Virus record (IMG/VR): IMGVR_UViG_3300009158_001631
Location: 1-44,753 of that record
Direction: 5' to 3' (one strand)
From: a virus
DNA length: 44,753 nucleotides
Shown: piece after piece, positions 1,082 to 40,850 of the stretch
How positions within the stretch are numbered: position 1 is the first letter of the stretch
Layout: every line of letters starts with the position of its first letter
Program-made: the position numbers and the translations under genes
Notes under the pieces: model-generated
What the model was told of the DNA's origin: nothing
What the model saw: the letters and a program-made list of their open reading frames with translations, nothing else
The model's database searches: none

Positions 1082-4000
1082 ATGGCAGATAATAATTTAA
1101 CCACGTTTATTACCGCCAACGCAGACTTTACGAGTTTAAGAACTCAGCTAGCTGCGGTTACTGCCCAACTCGTAAAATTACAAGAAACAACTGCTGGCAC
1201 AAACGCTAAACTTGCAAATCAAATTGCAGTGATGAACAAGTCGTTTGCCACGACACTTACTTCAACAGGGCAATTTTCACAACACTTTGTATCTCTAACT
1301 TCAGACGTAGACAAGTTTGGAAGAAATTTAGATAGAGGCCGACTCAAGCTCAACGAATATTATAATGCTTGGAGCGGCCATACAAAGAAAACAAGCAATT
1401 TAGTTAGAGAACTTGCTAAGCAGCAAGTAATGCTTCAGCAGGCCATAGTTCAGCCTGTAGGTAAAAACGCACAAGGTTTAATGCAATACAATGTTATGGT
1501 TGCAAAGGGTCTTGATGAAGTAAAGAATAAGATGGCCATTGCTACACAGCAAGCAGCAATTATGAACAAGGTCATGCTTGACGGATCAACAGGGCTTATT
1601 AACTGGGGTAAAAATACTCAATGGGCTGGACGTCAATTAACAGTAGGACTTACTGTTCCACTAATTGCATTCGGCGCAGCAGCACAAAAAGCATTTAGAG
1701 AAGCAGACCAAGAGCTAGTAAGATTAACAAAAGTTTATGGCGGATTAGCTGCAACATCTTCAGCAGATTTAGCTCAAGTTAGAAAAGATGTTAGCGCAAC
1801 CGCAAAAGAAATTGCAAGCTCTTATGGAGTTGCATACAAAGAAACAATCGCATTAGCGGCTGATCTTGCAGCAACAGGACAACAGGGCAACGACTTAATA
1901 GCTGCTACACAACAAACTACAAGACTAGCAGTTCTTGGTGAAGTTGATAGACAAGAAGCAATGAAAGCAACTCTTGCAATTCAAAACGCATTTAAACAAA
2001 ATACAGACGAACTTACTGCATCAATTGACTTTCTTAACGCAGTTGAAAACCAGACATCAACAAGCCTTGCAGATTTAACTGAAGCTATTCCAAAAGCAGG
2101 ACCAGTAGTTAAATCACTAGGTGGAGATGTAAAAGATTTAGCGCTTTATTTAACAGCAATGAAAGAAGGCGGAGTAAATGCATCTGAAGGTGCAAACGCA
2201 ATTAAATCAGCAATGGCATCGCTTATTAACCCAACTAAGGTTGCGACAGAACAGTTTGCTGGATTTGGAATTGACCTTAAGGGAATAGTAAACGATAACG
2301 CTGGAAACCTTACAGAAACTATAATGGCGTTGCAATCAGCGCTAGACCAGCTTAATCCTTTAGATAAATCTAGAGCAATCGAACAGCTATTTGGAAAGTT
2401 CCAGTTTGCAAGAATGTCTGCACTATTTGAAAACCTCGGAAAATCAGGGTCACAGACATTGCAAGTTATGGACTTAATGAAAGCAAGTGCAGTTGACCTT
2501 GCAAGTATTTCTGAGCGAGAATTAAAAATGATCACAGAGTCAGCCTCTGGACAGTTTAAAAGAGCATGGGCTGCAGTACAAGCAGACCTTGCCACAGTAG
2601 GAGAGCAATTCTTAAAGATAAGCACAAAGGTTTTAAAAGTAGTAGATGGAATAATTAATTTCTTTAAAGCACTTCCAGGCCCAGTTAAAACATTTCTTAA
2701 TGCATTAGGTGGAATAACAGCAATTGCTGGACCACTCATAATGATGGCTGGTGTTATGGGTAACTTTATTGGTTATGTTGTAAAAGGCATATTCCACTTA
2801 AGACAATTTGCTAAGGGCGGACAAGGTTTTAGATTACTGACTCCAGAAATAATTGCAGCAGATGCTGCGGCAAAGGGGCTAGCAACATCTTTTTATTCAG
2901 ACTCAGAAGCAACTATAGTATTAAAAAATGCAGTAGATACTCTTGCAGCATCTTTTACAGGGCTTGAGACAAGAGCAAACGCAGCTAAGGTTGCAGTTCA
3001 ACCAGCAATATCTACAGTAGCAGGAAGTGTTCTTGCGGCAGGCGGAGTGGGACAAAGAATGGTAGACAAGAGTAACCCACTAATTGGAGAGCCATATTCA
3101 AGAGATATGTCTCATATGATTCCAGCACAAACAAATCAGCCAGGAACTATATTTGGAACAGTACCAGGAGCAGGACCAGTAAACCTTAGAATTGGAAAAA
3201 ATCCACAAGCATATATGAATGCAGATATGCCAAAGATTCCAGGAGTTACATCTATAGGTGGAACCTCTACAGGAATTGTTGCAGCCGAAGCTGCCAAATG
3301 GCATGCAATGACTGCAGCAATTGCAATGCAATCAGAAGCAGAAATTAAATTATTAAAAACAGAAGTTACGGCAACTGGAACAGTTACATCAAGCCTATCA
3401 GATTCTTATCAAGCATTACTACCACAATTTTCTGAGATTACTCAGCTTGCTGCAGCCGAAACACAAGCAATTGTTCAACAGCTTCAAGCAAGCAAAATAA
3501 CAGTAGATCAAGCAAGAGCAAAAGTAATTCAGTTAAATGCAACAGTAGAAGCAATGCTTGCAGAAACAACAGCGCTTACAGCGCAGACAATGGGAAGAAC
3601 TGCAAACCTAACCACAGTCCCATTTACATCTCAGCCAGTAGTCGATCCAGTTACTGGGAAATCAAACATGAAAGAGATGTTCCATAAGGGATCAACAAAA
3701 ACCCTTGTAGATAAAATTGCTAGAGCTCTTGGAGGAGTTAGAACTTCGGGTGCAGGATATAACATTGAAACAACAAAGCCTAAATTTGCTGATGGCGGAA
3801 TTGTACCTGGAACAGGAAATACAGATACATATCACACAACAGCAGAGGCTGGGTCTTTTGTAATTAATAAAAAATCTACTGAAGAAAATATGCCAATAAT
3901 TAGTAGCCTATTGGGTGGAACTCCTAAGTTTGCTCAAGGTGGTCAAGTACCAGTTGTACTAACTCCTGGTGAAGCAGTTATACCTGCAGCAGTTGCACAA

Positions 4001-28451: not shown

Positions 28452-28759
28452 TGTCAGAAAGATCAGAAGTTAAAAGAGACGGCGCAAAAGCACAGAAGAA
28501 TTCTGGGCGTGGGGATTATCAAAAGGGTGATGCACAATGGAAGCAGTTCATTGTAGATTACAAAGAAGCAGGATCATCATTCACTCTAAACAAAGATAAC
28601 TGGGCAAAGATTTGTACAGATACCTTTAAAGTAAATAGAGATATGCATCCAGCACTAAAAATTATTATAGGAAAAGATTCAAAGGTTAGGTTAGGGATTA
28701 TTGAATGGTCGGTTTTAGAAGAACTTATACAGTTTTGGGAGGAAAATTATAATGGCTAA
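28451..28759 (+). CDS. Small protein of unknown function downstream of recA
   Basis: A 102-residue protein with a basic, flexible N-terminus (SERSEVKRDGAKAQKNSGRG) and a mixed alpha-beta remainder (WAKICTDTFKVNRDMHPALK). No family recognised. Coupled to both neighbours by overlaps. A basic tail in a recombination cluster suggests DNA binding, perhaps as a recombination mediator, but nothing here proves that. Confidence 0.5.
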   Translation: MSERSEVKRDGAKAQKNSGRGDYQKGDAQWKQFIVDYKEAGSSFTLNKDNWAKICTDTFKVNRDMHPALKIIIGKDSKVRLGIIEWSVLEELIQFWEENYNG

Positions 28760-29543
28760 GCATACAGTTATTAATATTTTGTCTAAAGAAGAGTGTGAAG
28801 TATATGTAAATAAGATAGACTTGCTAAGCGAGCACTGGATAAAAAGAGTTGTTGGACCTACACACCACTATACGTTAGGGACTGCAACATATCTTGATAT
28901 AGAGCCATACGGAGATGTAACTGAAGAACGAATTAATTTAATTAAAGAAAGCAATAGTCTACTGCAAAAGAATTTTTCAACCCTATACAATAAAGTTTTG
29001 CATTATATAGAAAAAGAGTACGGTCCAGCCGAGCTAGTTGTAGATGGTCCCATCCCAGGAATTTTTATTTATGGAGAAGCAAGACCAAATGATATTGTAG
29101 AAGAGCCAGAAGAGCCACGGCGTGGAAGGGTATCTTTGCATACAGACGGACAAGAGAAATGTCTTGAGTATATATGGTCTAGATATAGCGATGTAGAAGA
29201 AGAGACAATTGCGTTTACACTTGCCCTAGAGATGCCAAAGAATGGTGCATCATTTTTGTTATGGGATCAAGAGGACTTCGGCTTTTATTCAAGCTCTGAG
29301 TCTTCAAAGCTTTATAAAGAATATGATTATAATGAAAACCCATACAATGAAAAAGTTTTTAATGAAAGCATTTTAAATAAAATACCAGAGGTGATTGATC
29401 ATATCCCAGGCAACATGTTAATTCAAAGCGGAGAGCAGTGGCACTCAGTTGGGTTTTCAACAGCGCCGTTCAGTACCGATAGAAGAATTACTTTACAAGG
29501 ATTTGGTGTAAAGTGCGATGGAATCTGGAGACTATTCTTCTAA
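28752..29543 (+). CDS. 2-oxoglutarate/Fe(II)-dependent oxygenase (first of four)
   Basis: A 263-residue cupin-fold dioxygenase. The iron triad is H130 and D132 (VSLHTDG) with distal H231 (QWHSVG), and R244 or R245 (DRRITLQG) binds 2-oxoglutarate. Such enzymes couple 2-oxoglutarate decarboxylation to hydroxylation of proteins, nucleotides or small molecules. The substrate is unknown. It overlaps the upstream gene by 8 bases and stands inside the recombination cluster, unlike the other three, which flank the terminase or lie in the cargo region. Confidence 0.72.
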   Translation: MAKHTVINILSKEECEVYVNKIDLLSEHWIKRVVGPTHHYTLGTATYLDIEPYGDVTEERINLIKESNSLLQKNFSTLYNKVLHYIEKEYGPAELVVDGPIPGIFIYGEARPNDIVEEPEEPRRGRVSLHTDGQEKCLEYIWSRYSDVEEETIAFTLALEMPKNGASFLLWDQEDFGFYSSSESSKLYKEYDYNENPYNEKVFNESILNKIPEVIDHIPGNMLIQSGEQWHSVGFSTAPFSTDRRITLQGFGVKCDGIWRLFF

Positions 29544-32070: not shown

Positions 32071-32085
32071 TGGTATAATTTATAT
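32071..32085 (+). promoter_or_regulatory. Extended -10 promoter giving a leaderless terminase transcript
   Basis: TG-G-TATAAT at 32071-32079 has a perfect -10 hexamer, and six bases later comes ATG 32086. No -35 is evident. The packaging genes would begin with a leaderless mRNA. Confidence 0.65.
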
Positions 32086-32631
32086 ATGAGCGAATTAGAG
32101 CCAGCAGTACATTTTGACCGCATGAATAAGGTCGTAGAAGAGCTTTTGAAGGGCAATTCAGCAACGCAGATAGCAACCATCACTGGGTACTCAAGGAAAG
32201 AAGTTCTAGAGTACCTAGACGAGTGGAAGTCTGTTGTGCATAACGATAGCAATATTCGTGACCGTGCAAGAGAGGCAATATCTGGAGCAGACCAACACTA
32301 CGCAATGCTCATCAAAGAGGCCTGGAAAACCGTAGAGGACGCAGATACCCAAGGCCAACTAAATGTTAAGGCGGGAGCCTTAAAGCTTATAGCAGATATT
32401 GAAACAAAAAGAATAGCAATGCTTCAATCAGTGGGAGTATTAGAGAATACAGAGATTGCATCACAACTTGCAGAGACTGAAAGAAAGCAAGAGATACTTG
32501 TAGGTATACTTAAAGAAGTTACCGCAGGGTGTCCTAAATGCAAGATGGATGTTGCAAAGAGATTGTCTCAAATAACTGGAATAGTAGAGCCTGTATATAT
32601 AGATGCAGAGGTTACAAGCAATGTTCAATAA
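32086..32631 (+). CDS. Probable terminase small subunit
   Basis: A 181-residue protein. The N-terminal HTH (SATQIATITGYSRKEVLEYL, about residues 26-45) would recognise packaging DNA; the middle is helical for oligomerisation, and the C-terminal part holds CPKCKMDV (a CxxC pair). It lies upstream of the large terminase with a 2OG oxygenase between them. Position and the N-terminal HTH support the call, though terminase small subunits are poorly conserved. Starts a leaderless transcript. Confidence 0.68.
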   Translation: MSELEPAVHFDRMNKVVEELLKGNSATQIATITGYSRKEVLEYLDEWKSVVHNDSNIRDRAREAISGADQHYAMLIKEAWKTVEDADTQGQLNVKAGALKLIADIETKRIAMLQSVGVLENTEIASQLAETERKQEILVGILKEVTAGCPKCKMDVAKRLSQITGIVEPVYIDAEVTSNVQ

Positions 32632-33208
32632 AGATGGATTTGAAAAACTAGGCGAAGACATATATGTGTATCATAATTTTGTTACAGAAGAAGAATGCAA
32701 TTCTATTCTAGATATTGCCAAGTCACTTACAGAAGAAGAGTGGGTTGGAAGATTTAACACTACAGGAGAAGGTCACAAGACATCTAATAGATCTATAGAC
32801 CAGCTAGTTCCAATAAAAAAGAGGCTGTCTGATAAGCTAGAAGAAGGAATCCACCTAGCAGAAAACATTAGCATTGTGCGGATGAGAAAAGGTGCGACCT
32901 GGGGATTACATTCAGATAATCATGACTTCTTAGACTTAATAGCAGCAAGCAAACTTTACACTGAAGGACAAGAGTACACATTAGAAAAAAATAATATATG
33001 GGGTCTTGTAATGTACTTTAATGATTTTGATGGAGGAAGATTGTTTTATCCAAATCAAGGCGTAGAATATCAACCTAAAAGAGGTGATTTAGTAATACAT
33101 AGCTCAGAAGAACATTGTCTTCATGGAGTAGATGAATTAAAGAGTGATGTTAGATATTCACATTCAAATAATTTATTTAACTATATAAAAGTACCGAAAG
33201 GGATTTAA
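32621..33208 (+). CDS. 2OG-Fe(II) oxygenase, prolyl-hydroxylase-like (second of four)
   Basis: A 195-residue dioxygenase starting at ATG 32621 (GAGG nine bases upstream). Iron ligands are H97 and D99 (GLHSDNHD) and H168 (CLHGVDEL); R178 (DVRYSHS) should hold 2-oxoglutarate. The core is the P4H-like double-stranded beta helix (LVMYFNDFDGGRLFYPNQG). It overlaps the small terminase gene and the large terminase start, so it is co-transcribed with packaging genes. The substrate is unknown; a virion protein or host translation factor is possible. Confidence 0.85.
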   Translation: MFNKDGFEKLGEDIYVYHNFVTEEECNSILDIAKSLTEEEWVGRFNTTGEGHKTSNRSIDQLVPIKKRLSDKLEEGIHLAENISIVRMRKGATWGLHSDNHDFLDLIAASKLYTEGQEYTLEKNNIWGLVMYFNDFDGGRLFYPNQGVEYQPKRGDLVIHSSEEHCLHGVDELKSDVRYSHSNNLFNYIKVPKGI

Positions 33209-35343: not shown

Positions 35344-35415
35344 ACCTCTGTAGCTCAGAGGAAGAGCAACAGACTTCTAATCTGTTGGTCGCTGGTTCGA
35401 TTCCAGCCAGGGGTA
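35344..35415 (+). tRNA. tRNA-Arg (anticodon TCT)
   Basis: A complete cloverleaf: acceptor ACCTCTG/CAGGGGT with one U-G pair, D stem GCTC/GAGC, anticodon stem ACAGA/TCTGT with loop CTTCTAA, T arm GCTGG-TTCGATT-CCAGC. It reads AGA (and AGG), by far the commonest Arg codons in the tail and accessory genes here. Four bases after the previous tRNA and 32 before katG. Confidence 0.95.
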
Positions 35416-35447: not shown

Positions 35448-37511
35448 ATGAGTGAAGCAAAGTGTCCAGTAACTGGACATTCATCAAAGCCAGAAGCAAC
35501 AACAAATGAATACTGGTGGCCTAATAGATTAGATTTATCGGGCTTAAGAAAGCATTCAGAAAAGTCTGACCCTATGTCAAGCGATTTTGATTATGCAAAA
35601 GAATTTGAAAGCCTAGATCTTGATGCAGTTAAAAATGATATTAATAGTATTTTAACTACATCTCAAGAATGGTGGCCAGCAGATTATGGAAATTACGGGC
35701 CATTTTTTATTCGCATGGCATGGCACTCAGCAGGAACTTACCGAACAGCAGACGGACGTGGTGGTTCTGGAGAAGGCCTACACAGATTTGCACCACAAAA
35801 CTCATGGCCAGATAACGGCAATTTAGATAAGGCCCGACGTTTACTGTGGCCAATTAAACAAAAGTACGGTAAAAAGATTTCTTGGGCAGACCTAATGATA
35901 CTAGCAGGAAATGTTGCCCTTGAAAACATGGGATTTAAGACGTTTGGTTTTGCTGGTGGTCGTGAAGATGTTTGGGAATCTGATGATACATATTGGGGTA
36001 ACGAAAAAGAATGGCTAGCAGATAATCGATATAGTGGAGATCGTGAATTAGAAAATCCATTAGCAGCTGTTCAGATGGGATTGATTTATGTAAACCCAGA
36101 AGGACCTAATAGCAACCCAGATCCAATTCTTTCTGCAAGAGACATACGTGAAACTTTTGCCCGTATGGCAATGAATGATGAAGAAACTGTTGCATTGATC
36201 GCTGGCGGACACGCTTTTGGAAAGGCACACGGAGCTGGTAATCCATCTAATGTTGGTCCAAATCCAGAGCAGGCACCAATAGAAGAAATGGGGCTTGGAT
36301 GGAAGAATTCATTTGGAAAAGGTAATGCAGAAGACACAATTACAAGTGGAATTGAAGGCGCTTGGACTCCAACACCAACCAAGTGGGATAACACTTACCT
36401 GGAGCTATTGTTTACATATGACTGGAAGCAGACAAAGTCACCAGCAGGTGCAACTCAATGGATTCCAACTGATGAATCTACTGTTAACTTAGTTCCAGAT
36501 GCACACATAGATGGTAAATTACATGCACCAATGATGACTACGGCAGATCTAGCATTAAAATTTGATCCAGAGTATAACAAAATCTCAATGAGATTTCTTA
36601 AAGATTTTGAATACTTTTCGGATGTATTTGCTCGTGCATGGTTTAAGTTGACTCATAGAGATATGGGACCAACTTCAAGATACCTTGGCAAAGAAGTCCC
36701 ATCAGAAATATTAATATGGCAGGATCCAGTTCCGTCAGTAAAAATAAAAAAGATTTCTGACAAAAATATTAAAAAGATAAAGAAGCAAATATTAGATTCA
36801 GGATTATCTATTTCAGATCTAGTTATTACTGCATGGGCTTCTGCCTCTACTTTTAGAAAAACAGATAAGCGTGGTGGTGCAAATGGTGCAAGAATTAGAT
36901 TTCAGCCACAAATATCATGGGATGTAAATGACACGCCTATGATTAGCAGAGTTCTTGCTGTTCTAGAATCTATTAAAACAGAGATGTCAATGGCAGACCT
37001 TATTGTACTTGGTGGATGTGCTGCTATTGAAAAGTCAGCAGAACAATCAGGAATTAAAATATCTGTTCCATTTACACAGGGCAGAACAGATGCAACGCAA
37101 GCACAAACAGATGTTGCATCATTTGCAGTTCTTGAGCCAAAGTTTGATGGTTTCCGTAACTACACTAATTGGGCTGTCACTGCTCAAGAAGAGGTGCTAC
37201 TAATAGAAAAAGCCAACCTATTAGATTTAAATCCAGTAGAGCTTGTACTATTGCTATCTGGAATTAGAATGCTAAACAACAATGAATTAGACAACAGTTA
37301 TTTAGTTGAGCTACTTTCTTACACTAATGCTAGTGAGGCAATTAGCGTTCCTCGTATAGACCTTATTATTGCATCAAACTCAGAGCTCCGTGCCATTGCA
37401 GAAGTATACGCTTCTAATGACGCTCAGGAAAAATTCTTTGTGGATTTTGCAAACGCATGGAATAAGGTTATGATGCTTGATCGATTTGATATAAAGAAAG
37501 GGACAAAATGA
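35448..37511 (+). CDS. katG: Catalase-peroxidase KatG, phage-encoded
   Basis: A 687-residue haem enzyme that turns hydrogen peroxide into water and oxygen. ATG 35448 has AAAGGAG upstream; an open frame further back runs through the tRNA. All key residues are present by comparison with M. tuberculosis KatG: distal R89, W92, H93; Y214 and M240, which with W92 make the unique Met-Tyr-Trp cofactor; proximal H255, W306, D367; and the mobile arginine R404. [24 protein letters not shown] and [12 protein letters not shown] are clearly visible. The C-terminal half lacks some 50 residues against typical KatG (about 720-740), but the haem half is complete. It is probably functional. Confidence 0.97.
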
Positions 37512-37691: not shown

Positions 37692-37706
37692 TGGTATAAT
37701 GAATAT
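37692..37706 (+). promoter_or_regulatory. Extended -10 promoter, leaderless oxygenase gene
   Basis: TG-G-TATAAT at 37692-37700 with a perfect -10 hexamer; ATG 37707 follows after six bases (GAATAT). Same arrangement as at 32071. No -35 seen. Confidence 0.68.
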
Positions 37707-38402
37707 ATGGAATCATTTAGTTATCCAGAAAATATGACAGAGGTTGTGCATAGGCCTGACATAGTTGAATACAAAAATGTATTAACTAAACAGGAATGTA
37801 GCAACATAATAAAATACTGGAATAGCCTAGATGACTGGTCGCTTTCATGCTTTTACAACTCTTATGTAATTTCAGGCAAAAAGCCAAACACCCCAGAAGC
37901 TGGACCATTGCTTAGACAAATTCAATTAAAGTCTCAAGATCTTGCAGAAAAAGTATTTAAGTCAAAGCTAAGACAAATTAGCTTGAGTGCACATAGGTGG
38001 GATCCAGGTGCTTTTGCAGGAGATCATGCAGATAACGCAGAGCTTGATGGAACTCCTAACGCATGGCAAGAAAATAAGTTTGTAACAATGATTTATCTTA
38101 ATGATGATTTTGAAGGTGGACTACTTACATTTAGAGACCACGGGCTGGCATTTAAACCAGAGACTGGGTCTTTTATTGTTTTTGATGTTGGCATAAAAAA
38201 TGTACATGCTGTCACAGAGGTCCTGTCTGGGCAAAGATATACCATGCTTGGATCGTATGATTATGAGAATTCGTCATATGATAAAGATTTTCAAGAAATT
38301 AAAAATTCAATAAAAACAAATCAAGATAAACAAAAAGAACAATGGTCTGAAGGCAAAGTCATGCCCTCAACAACTGCTACGGCATATCAACCAATCAACT
38401 AA
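37707..38402 (+). CDS. 2OG-Fe(II) oxygenase, prolyl-hydroxylase-like (third of four)
   Basis: A 231-residue dioxygenase with iron ligands H107, D109 (GDHADN) and H167 (NVHAVTEV), and R177 (GQRYTMLG) for 2-oxoglutarate. The core shows FVTMIYLNDDFEGGLLTF, typical of P4H-like enzymes. The C-terminal 40 residues form a Lys/Gln-rich helix. It is the first gene of a transcript from a leaderless promoter. Its substrate is unknown; its paralogues at 28752 and 32621 differ strongly in sequence. Confidence 0.86.
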   Translation: MESFSYPENMTEVVHRPDIVEYKNVLTKQECSNIIKYWNSLDDWSLSCFYNSYVISGKKPNTPEAGPLLRQIQLKSQDLAEKVFKSKLRQISLSAHRWDPGAFAGDHADNAELDGTPNAWQENKFVTMIYLNDDFEGGLLTFRDHGLAFKPETGSFIVFDVGIKNVHAVTEVLSGQRYTMLGSYDYENSSYDKDFQEIKNSIKTNQDKQKEQWSEGKVMPSTTATAYQPIN

Positions 38403-38418
38403 AGAAATCGGGAACCCA

Positions 38419-39282
38419 ATGATACTCGTTAACACAACAGAGTTTACGTCTATTGAAGAAATTAAGTCTAATCCAGAAAAGTACAAAGATCTTTTTCTAA
38501 AAGACAAGATCATTGTATTTAGAAATGCTAATTTAAATAAAGAGCAACAGACAGACCTAATGGAATTTTTTGGAGATACCCTGGGTTGGTATCCAAATTC
38601 TTCAAACCGTAGCCCATCTGATTATGTAGAGGACCACCACAAGCATATGGTAAACGGAAGGTACGCTACAAAAGACCAGCTTATGTTAAACTGGCACACA
38701 GAGCACGTAGAGAATGAGAACGATTCTTTCCACGGATCAACCTGGAGAATGGAAAAGTTTAACTGCCCAGAAGATTCAGGACATACATATTTTATGGATA
38801 TGACAGAGATGTATGCTAATTTAAACAAAGATGATCAAGAATTTTTAGATAAATGCATAACCTATTTAACAGTTGTTGAAGCAACCTACGATAAAGAAGA
38901 TAAGCAGACTCTTAAAGAGATTAAGCAGTCCTTTAAGACAGTAAATACGCACCCAATAACAGGAGAGAAAACATTAAGAGTTCATCTTGCGTCACCAACT
39001 CCAGAGTTTATATCCTTAGAGACATTTGATGGGCGAAATCCAAGTGCTGAAGAAAAAAATAATTTTAATCGTTTAATTAAATGGGTTTGCAACGAGGTAT
39101 GGACAAACGAAGAAATTAGAATGGTTCACAAATGGCAAGAAGGAGACCTTGCAGTTCCAGATTTATATAAGCTAGCTCATGCAGTAAGCGGAGGATTTGT
39201 AGAAAATCAAAGAACTCTTCAGGGACAATTTGGCAAAGCAACACCTTGGGGCCCCCCAATAATGTCTAAGAGCGGTTGGTAG
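38419..39282 (+). CDS. TauD/TfdA-like 2-oxoglutarate dioxygenase (fourth of four)
   Basis: A 287-residue protein with the TauD/TfdA layout: N-terminal VFRNANLNKEQQTDLMEFFG, iron ligands H93 and E95 (NWHTEHVEN; the usual motif is H-x-D, here H-x-E), distal H254 (KLAHAVSGGF) and R265 (QRTLQGQF). GDLAVPDLYKLAH before H254 fits the family. Members oxidise taurine, other sulfonates, amino acids or antibiotic precursors. H-x-E replaces H-x-D, still a legal iron triad. The gene follows the third oxygenase in the same transcript. Confidence 0.82.
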   Translation: MILVNTTEFTSIEEIKSNPEKYKDLFLKDKIIVFRNANLNKEQQTDLMEFFGDTLGWYPNSSNRSPSDYVEDHHKHMVNGRYATKDQLMLNWHTEHVENENDSFHGSTWRMEKFNCPEDSGHTYFMDMTEMYANLNKDDQEFLDKCITYLTVVEATYDKEDKQTLKEIKQSFKTVNTHPITGEKTLRVHLASPTPEFISLETFDGRNPSAEEKNNFNRLIKWVCNEVWTNEEIRMVHKWQEGDLAVPDLYKLAHAVSGGFVENQRTLQGQFGKATPWGPPIMSKSGW

Positions 39283-39303: not shown

Positions 39304-39318
39304 TGGTATACTAAGATT
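39304..39318 (+). promoter_or_regulatory. Extended -10 promoter, leaderless Dps-like gene
   Basis: TG-G-TATACT at 39304-39312 with ATG 39319 after exactly six bases (AAGATT). It is in the 36-base gap after the TauD-like gene. No -35 seen. Confidence 0.62.
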
Positions 39319-39789
39319 ATGAAACAATTAATTAACTCACTACAGGAATTACAGTCAAATTCATTTATATATTCAAACCTTGTAAAGGGTTTCTATTTAA
39401 ATACAGAGTCTATTTTAATGAGACAGTCACAGATCGTATATAAAGAGATATACTTAGAGTCAGATAGACTGCTCATGGAAACCTCCCTATGGCTACGTAG
39501 ACTAGGTGGAGAAGCCTTATATACTATTGAAGATATATCTGCATCACAAACCCTAGGCAATGTTAAGCCAGACACCTACTGTGGTGTTGAAATGGCAATG
39601 CATCTTGTGCCAATTAATAAAACAATGATTGAAGAGATTCGAGTTGTTACAGATCAAGCAATAGCAAGCAAAGAGTGGGCACTTGTTCCACATTTATCAG
39701 AATTGTTAAAGAAGCATCAAGAGTGGAATTGGATGCTAGAGTCAAGCTTAAAGCTTCCACCGAATCCTTGGAAGTCACTTAAGGATTAA
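39319..39789 (+). CDS. Dps/ferritin-like protein with replaced ferroxidase ligands
   Basis: A 156-residue four-helix protein with Dps hallmarks: LNTESILMRQSQ at the first helix bend, LWLRRLGGEA and LLKKHQEWNWMLESSL at the end. Aligned without gaps to the Dps consensus I know, the iron sites become Y26 (His), Q38 (His), M53 (Asp) and L57 (Glu), so the ferroxidase centre appears lost. Dps normally binds DNA and oxidises iron with hydrogen peroxide; this one may keep the dodecamer or DNA-binding role alone. Co-located with katG. The comparison is from memory and should be realigned. Confidence 0.72.
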   Translation: MKQLINSLQELQSNSFIYSNLVKGFYLNTESILMRQSQIVYKEIYLESDRLLMETSLWLRRLGGEALYTIEDISASQTLGNVKPDTYCGVEMAMHLVPINKTMIEEIRVVTDQAIASKEWALVPHLSELLKKHQEWNWMLESSLKLPPNPWKSLKD

Positions 39790-39791
39790 AT

Positions 39792-40850
39792 ATGCAATTA
39801 GACCCAATCACTAGCCCTTTATGTTTTGACGATATACTTCTTGTACCAAAAAAGTCTGGTGTTGTAAGTAGGTCTGATATACAGTTTACATCTAAAATAG
39901 GTAATCCCAATAACCCAGCAGCCTGGGTACACCTTGACAATGCATTTGTTTTAGCTCCAATGGAGTTTATTAGTAGCACCAAGATGATTAAAAAGGTTTT
40001 AGATAATGGTGGGCTTGCTTTTGTACAAAGATTTCAACCAAAAGAAGATAGAATTGCACAGTATAAACAAATTGTTTCAGAGTCTAAATGGACCGATAGA
40101 TTAGGATTTTCTATAAATAACGCAGAGGCAGAAGATAAAGATCTTATTGAACAAATCCTTGCTACTGGGTGTAAGATTATATTAATAGACACTGCATACG
40201 GACACACAGACATGGCAGTAAATGCAGTAAAAAGATTAAGAGCCCTTCTTCCAAACTACATACACATAATGAGTGGCAACGTTTCTTCATACGATGCTTA
40301 CAAAGACTTGATGGATTCAGGAGCTGACTCTGTAAGAGTTGGTATAGGAGGAGGCGCAGCATGTACTACAAGAATTGTAACTGGGTTTGGCACCCCAGTT
40401 CTTGGATCAATTATGGACATTTATCAAAACGTAAAGACAGACGAAGTAAATGGAATAGTTTCTGATGGTGGAATTAAAAATAACGGAGACATTGTAAAGG
40501 CTCTTGCAGGCGGAGCAAGTGCAGTAATGATGGGAACCGCTTTTGCAGGTCATGAAGAGTGTGACGGAATGACAAATGGAAAATTTTTATTTAGAGGACT
40601 TGCATCAGAAGGAATACAGTTAGATAAAGATACAGGGGAAAGGCCACCACTAAATGCTTTGCATATAGAAGGGGTCTCAGCTTATCTAGAAAATAAAGGC
40701 CCTGTAGAGTTGACTATTGCACAAATAATTAATAACGTTAAAAGCGGAATGTCCTATTGTGGGTCACCTACGCTAAAATCTTTCAGAGAGGACTGTAGAT
40801 TTATTAAAGTATCTCCACAGTCGCTGAGAGAATCTGGAAGCAGAATATAA
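39792..40850 (+). CDS. IMP dehydrogenase/GMP reductase family enzyme
   Basis: A 352-residue TIM-barrel oxidoreductase. The catalytic loop is VGIGGGAACTTRIVTG (C191, T193), and the phosphate loop is VSDGGIKNNGDIVKAL. The GHEECDG and FLFRGLAS region after the loop resembles GMP reductase more than IMP dehydrogenase, and there is no CBS domain. GMP reductase makes IMP from GMP and so shifts purine pools. Two bases after the Dps-like gene. Phage examples exist for both activities, so the reaction is unsettled. Confidence 0.78.
   Translation: MQLDPITSPLCFDDILLVPKKSGVVSRSDIQFTSKIGNPNNPAAWVHLDNAFVLAPMEFISSTKMIKKVLDNGGLAFVQRFQPKEDRIAQYKQIVSESKWTDRLGFSINNAEAEDKDLIEQILATGCKIILIDTAYGHTDMAVNAVKRLRALLPNYIHIMSGNVSSYDAYKDLMDSGADSVRVGIGGGAACTTRIVTGFGTPVLGSIMDIYQNVKTDEVNGIVSDGGIKNNGDIVKALAGGASAVMMGTAFAGHEECDGMTNGKFLFRGLASEGIQLDKDTGERPPLNALHIEGVSAYLENKGPVELTIAQIINNVKSGMSYCGSPTLKSFREDCRFIKVSPQSLRESGSRI

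Follow-up and report, generated by a model that had tools for sequence, protein, structure and literature searches.

Proteins of the Dps (mini-ferritin) type, such as B. subtilis MrgA (2chp), H. cinaedi CAIP (5lbh) and T. elongatus Dps (2c41), share a four-helix bundle with a BC helix. Two further Dps proteins, DpsA and DpsB of Lactococcus lactis, are reported to be without the classical ferroxidase centre. The lactococcal proteins bind DNA via an N-terminal helix, and in every Dps each dimer interface is stated to hold a ferroxidase centre (PMC13319912). It is also stated that not all Dps have ferroxidase activity (PMC3613396). In the His-type Dps, Nostoc Dps4 and T. elongatus DpsA, a histidine replaces the aspartate ligand and metal binding at the site is kept through other ligands (PMC6675082).

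The window, as we call the whole 44,753-base stretch of a viral record that was analysed, encodes a 156-residue protein, DpsX, with Tyr26, Gln38, Met53 and Leu57 in the ferroxidase-ligand columns, a conserved block at residues 79-100 and the C-terminal tail LPPNPWKSLKD. It is very probably a dead-site paralogue of Dps that has come under a new constraint.

Fold and descent of DpsX

The hallmarks of a Dps fold noted in a preliminary description of this gene were borne out by sequence profiles, AlphaFold2 models, Foldseek and VIA-align 2. Against the Ferritin family PF00210 the window protein scores 21.8 bits (E = 1.9e-4), below the gathering cut-off of 24.5 bits, while a sister DpsX from the phage contig L043 lies above it at 36.3 bits. 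Profile alignment with Dps had been proposed as a check; when a profile of nine relatives was compared with solved structures, Dps proteins came first (5lbh, E = 8.3e-6; 2chp, 2.9e-4; 1ji4, 1.1e-3). No gaps were needed to align it with 5lbh. The AlphaFold2 model has a pLDDT of 92.3 and a pTM of 0.86. The same four long helices and BC helix were predicted from an alignment of DpsX rows only (pLDDT 84.4, pTM 0.81), with the C-terminal tail at low confidence, which shows that the canonical Dps rows do not impose the Dps fold. The best Foldseek matches of the model in the PDB are Dps proteins, with TM scores of 0.86-0.89, and VIA-align 2 pairs residues 1 to 145 of the model with 10 to 153 of the MrgA chain (Z 22.2, rmsd 1.5 Å over 144 residues). 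Rather than a fold unlike ferritin, AlphaFold2 and the fold searches therefore gave that of Dps, and the models allow DpsX to be assigned with confidence as a Dps-fold protein, a ferritin-like four-helix bundle with a short BC helix.

A profile search located 64 DpsX loci in viral contigs. None was found across 84,980 bacterial and archaeal genomes in a scan for short peptide patterns, which could miss divergent copies, and tblastn gave no match among the known phages of INPHARED. With zero relatives in this pattern-based scan of the genome collection, a host-derived gene was rejected as the origin of DpsX; a role in defence or anti-defence was dropped when PADLOC returned no match. Canonical phage Dps are far commoner, with at least 583 viral relatives. 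In the tree DpsX forms a single clade (support 100/100), which includes L064, whose tail ends SLQD; its stem is 1.21 changes per column long. The clade is nested within a supported group of canonical phage Dps, and the Dps of bacteria and of other phages fall outside that group. The phylogeny thus indicates a single origin of DpsX from a ligand-intact canonical phage Dps. DpsX is Dps by fold and by descent, but it should be classed as a paralogue derived from Dps and not as a functional Dps.

Ligand loss and selection

His26, His38, Asp53 and Glu57 are each present in 30/30 aligned canonical phage Dps, to which the window protein is 23-36% identical, and these rows confirm the earlier assignment of Tyr, Gln, Met and Leu to the four columns. 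The register was checked on canonical Dps of related phages, which are far nearer in sequence than the E. coli protein. Alignment to the 30 is gap-free across the ligand region, with small gaps only further on, and together with the structure match this rules out a shift that would regain the His, Asp and Glu ligands. A full ligand set is absent from every one of the 33 aligned DpsX sequences. Position 38, Arg or Gln in each member, is the sole ligand position lost throughout the family; some members retain one or two of His26, Asp53 and Glu57 (for example VRDE in L054 and HRHV in L043), and 11 of the 33 have His53, always together with Arg38. Chance is excluded because similar loss is seen across these 33 sequences, drawn from 64 loci. 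Of the four ligand columns, three rank with the 14 most variable of all 156 (hypergeometric p = 0.002). On the simplest reading His38 would have been lost first and the remaining ligands eroded piecemeal afterwards. With all four canonical ligands gone from the window protein, normal ferroxidase chemistry is not expected, and the sequence supports the view in the preliminary description that it could not oxidise iron in the usual way. The window protein thus has neither the His/His/Asp/Glu set of Dps nor, with Met53, the His-for-Asp exchange of the His-type ferroxidase Dps.

Away from this site DpsX is held under strong purifying selection, above all in two segments, 21-41 and 79-100, and along the C-terminal tail. 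Pairwise dN/dS values among DpsX are 0.02-0.08. By region, the ratio of non-synonymous to synonymous differences is highest in the ligand columns (0.165) and lowest in the C-terminal 15 residues (4 against 80; 0.014). Reading frames are intact family-wide and 56 columns are invariant. At 25 positions invariant in DpsX the majority residue of canonical Dps differs; nearly all of these lie in 21-41, 65-71, 83-99 and 147-148. From ferritin topology, these segments would represent the AB turn, the beginning of helix C and the C-terminus, and would share one end of the bundle. The loss of the iron-oxidising site together with the gain of other fixed features suggests that DpsX probably does a different job, and the pattern of substitution points to neofunctionalisation, not decay.

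Neighbouring genes and probable host

The order of genes around dpsX is katG, a 2OG-Fe(II) oxygenase, a TauD-like gene, dpsX and an IMPDH-like gene (Table 1), followed by NlpC/P60-like and SNase-like genes (both called by eye), Hsp20 and a kinase/nucleotidyltransferase. The TauD-like gene is directly upstream of dpsX in the window's phage group. Phages of the L043 group have a canonical dps between the genes for the 2OG oxygenase and the TauD-like protein; it is absent from that place in the window. The window has two further 2OG-Fe(II) oxygenase-like genes, at 28752-29543 (called by eye, without a Pfam match) and 32603-33208, and L032, L054 and L064 also carry several each. The DpsX phages L243 and L244 encode WhiB and a radical SAM/SPASM protein. 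Judged by eye, they also have a PLP enzyme resembling cystathionine gamma-synthase and S-layer-like secreted proteins.

Table 1. Features of the window around dpsX.
Feature	Coordinates	Strand	Remarks
katG, catalase-peroxidase	35448..37511	+	NF011635 and TIGR00198, both above cut-off
TGGTATAAT element	37692..37700	+	6 bases ahead of the ATG of the oxygenase gene at 37707
2OG-Fe(II) oxygenase, prolyl-4-hydroxylase-like	37707..38402	+	PF13640, E = 1.4e-9; synteny
TauD/TfdA-family 2OG-Fe(II) dioxygenase	38419..39282	+	PF02668, E = 1.9e-21; synteny
TGGTATACT, extended -10-like element	39304..39312	+	ends 6 bases ahead of the dpsX ATG
dpsX	39319..39789	+	ATG to TAA, 156 residues
IMPDH/GMP-reductase-like gene	39792..40850	+	PF00478, E = 5e-70; 2 bases past the dpsX stop

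The IMPDH-like protein retains the catalytic Cys loop GGAACTTR, gave no match to a CBS domain and has an IMPDH as its closest solved structure (E = 2.8e-51); it falls below every cut-off of the NCBIfam equivalogs, so that either IMP or GMP may be its substrate. The gene is found in 18/21 DpsX records compared with 1/24 records that have only a canonical Dps (Fisher p = 1e-8), a test in which the records share ancestry, are not independent and may be incomplete. It starts 1-10 bases downstream of dpsX in 13/21 representative loci; in phages of the L033 group ~14 kb separate the pair. The correlation of DpsX with IMPDH-like distances is strong given SNase or NMNAT and falls to r = 0.33 given terL, hence it is not decisive, and since the DpsX phages are related the co-occurrence may reflect shared ancestry. 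Judged by gene content and order, the IMPDH-like gene appears to be the best-linked partner of DpsX.

The elements ahead of dpsX and of the oxygenase gene at 37707 are accompanied by a third at 32071, ahead of a gene at 32086 that reads by eye as the terminase small subunit. The pattern TGGTATAMT-N6-ATG thus occurs 3 times in the window against 0.04 expected, and many loci of related phages have elements of this type ahead of dpsX and of canonical dps genes. They may be extended -10 promoters giving leaderless transcripts; an extended -10 with a leaderless start is common in Actinobacteria.

The closeness of dpsX to katG had been taken to suggest a peroxide defence shared by the two. For katG the ATG start is preferred because the listed TTG at 35385 falls inside a tRNA gene. 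In phages with a 99% identical DpsX, L003 among them, ahpC-ahpD, named from reading the sequences, occupy the position of katG (L003 3276-4324), between flanks that match the window at 97.8% and 99.2%. Exchange in one place between phages this similar marks the slot as a peroxide cassette. Among 65 DpsX loci, katG was seen in 5, ahpC-ahpD in 14, both in none and neither in 46, in the sequence examined. So the link to peroxide defence holds for the interchangeable slot and fails for DpsX itself: with most loci lacking both, it is a cassette trait of the phage group, and katG as a constant partner is ruled out by its presence in only 5 of the 65. An independent dps-katG pairing occurs on the Aeromonas plasmid pAER-f133 (L241 435-1450), where a Dps-family gene is directly upstream of katG.

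The closest KatGs are those of low-GC freshwater Actinobacteria, with 64% identity to that of IMCC25003 and, within its order, identities reaching about 70% across most of the protein. Sister phages encode WhiB (PF02467), which is known only from Actinobacteria and their phages. Together these make a low-GC freshwater actinobacterium of the order of IMCC25003 the probable host. PF00210 was found in 0/121 sampled genomes of this order, which may be incomplete, compared with 14/14 control genomes. This stands in contrast to the many viral contigs that carry a canonical dps. Interference with a host Dps through mixed assembly, as suggested previously, is accordingly unlikely.

Possible roles and relation to known Dps proteins

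The reading tentatively preferred here, to which we would give not quite an even chance, is that a ferroxidase-dead Dps paralogue has been turned into a binding or scaffold protein, with the IMPDH-like enzyme as its most likely partner. DpsX would neither oxidise nor mineralise iron and would act non-catalytically, the bundle end that carries the AB turn, the first part of helix C and the tail docking a partner, for which the adjacent IMPDH/GMP-reductase-like enzyme is the best candidate. In the window phage DpsX would probably be part of a set used at the time of infection that comprises the peroxide scavenger, the Fe(II)/2OG oxygenases, DpsX and the IMPDH-like enzyme. The conserved bundle end could instead serve oligomer contacts. 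A narrower version, in which DpsX is a dedicated partner or regulator of the phage IMPDH/GMP-reductase-like enzyme with a job outside iron chemistry, is possible if rather doubtful; if true, the purine pool of the infected cell would be tied to a former iron-storage scaffold.

It seems unlikely that DpsX is a non-catalytic co-subunit which, much as ferritin L chains mix with H chains, would join a catalytic Dps of phage or host in a hetero-dodecamer and tune iron entry or storage. The retained Dps fold and the promoter-like element common to both paralogues would fit, and 6/40 DpsX records also encode a ligand-intact canonical Dps, the two genes lying close together and sometimes directly adjacent, so that mixed assembly with a phage-encoded Dps is possible in a minority of phages. 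However, the 44.7 kb window has no canonical Dps, nor do most DpsX records, including those of 110-120 kb, allowing that records may be incomplete; DpsX is strongly constrained even in phages without a visible partner Dps, and the inferred host order offers no ferritin-family gene in the 121 genomes.

Replacement of the lost site by a new metal or catalytic site is a distinctly unlikely alternative. Cys88, Glu91 and His95, spaced i, i+3, i+7 on helix C, are invariant in 33/33 DpsX and not conserved in canonical phage Dps, and with neighbouring invariant residues they might form such a site, but they do not stand out because nearly all of 79-100 is invariant, and a similar known site was not found.

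The preliminary description had also proposed a DNA-binding shield, an oligomer that coats or compacts DNA without iron chemistry. A Dps fold and a DNA compaction that would suit a phage fit this proposal, and Dps without ferroxidase activity are said to exist (PMC3613396). The established determinants of DNA binding by Dps are, however, Lys-rich or helical N-terminal tails (PMC13319912, PMC7762939), a feature of many, not all, Dps that DpsX lacks. Its helix A starts at residue 2 with neither an N-terminal extension nor a Lys tail, its pI is acidic (5.7 in the window, 5.5-6.5 across the family), its only tail, the short conserved C-terminal one, is just mildly basic with a net charge near +2, and the hyperconserved residues are not surface lysines. 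The sequence features thus leave the proposal unsupported, and we consider it highly improbable. That DpsX is a functionless, decaying pseudo-enzyme, as drift at the ligand positions might suggest, is scarcely credible, being contradicted by the low dN/dS, intact reading frames and invariant columns of the selection analysis.

The C-terminal tail may resemble an encapsulin-like cargo peptide, a reading that was considered and set aside; no capsid genes were seen beside DpsX in the stretches read. In L141 a single reading frame (2-1993) combines a HAD-like with a Dps domain (PF00210, E = 5e-16) and with a prohead protease of the HK97 type (PF04586, E = 2.6e-48), with the major capsid gene following at 2357-3541, and in BFVD some Dps-fold matches bear the name prohead protease. 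Some phages may take Dps into their proheads. Our search of the literature on phage Dps as an auxiliary gene, and on Dps with prohead protease, found nothing on point.

A whole phage clade has thus dropped its catalytic site after one origin from an intact Dps, yet hardened the rest of the protein. It offers a clean case in which catalysis was lost and a new function probably followed. Some genomes hold the intact paralogue next to the dead one, and whether the Dps cage serves purposes beyond iron and DNA becomes open to test. The case further points to Dps-type proteins and interchangeable peroxide-scavenging cassettes in phages of freshwater Actinobacteria, whose inferred host order seems ferritin-free.

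Compared with the mini-ferritins MrgA, CAIP and T. elongatus Dps, DpsX has in common the bundle and BC helix (VIA Z about 22, rmsd 1.5-1.6 Å) and descent shared through phage Dps; it differs in lacking all four ligands and the N-terminal tail. The canonical Dps of environmental phages (for example L043 4721-5167 and L017 5541-5987) are its direct sister group, and in some phages occupy the same locus behind the same promoter-like element. In contrast to DpsX they keep His26, His38, Asp53 and Glu57 invariant, have another majority residue at the 25 positions and no C-terminal extension, and neither the invariant 79-100 block nor the PPNPWKSLKD tail is seen in them. The His-for-Asp exchange of Nostoc Dps4 and T. 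elongatus DpsA (PMC6675082) recurs at position 53 in 11 DpsX; unlike these His-type proteins, DpsX has also lost His38 and mostly Glu57, and the window protein has Met53. L. lactis DpsA/DpsB, represented by 1zs3 among the fold matches of DpsX, are likewise reported to be without a classical ferroxidase centre, and unlike them DpsX is without a DNA-binding N-terminal helix.
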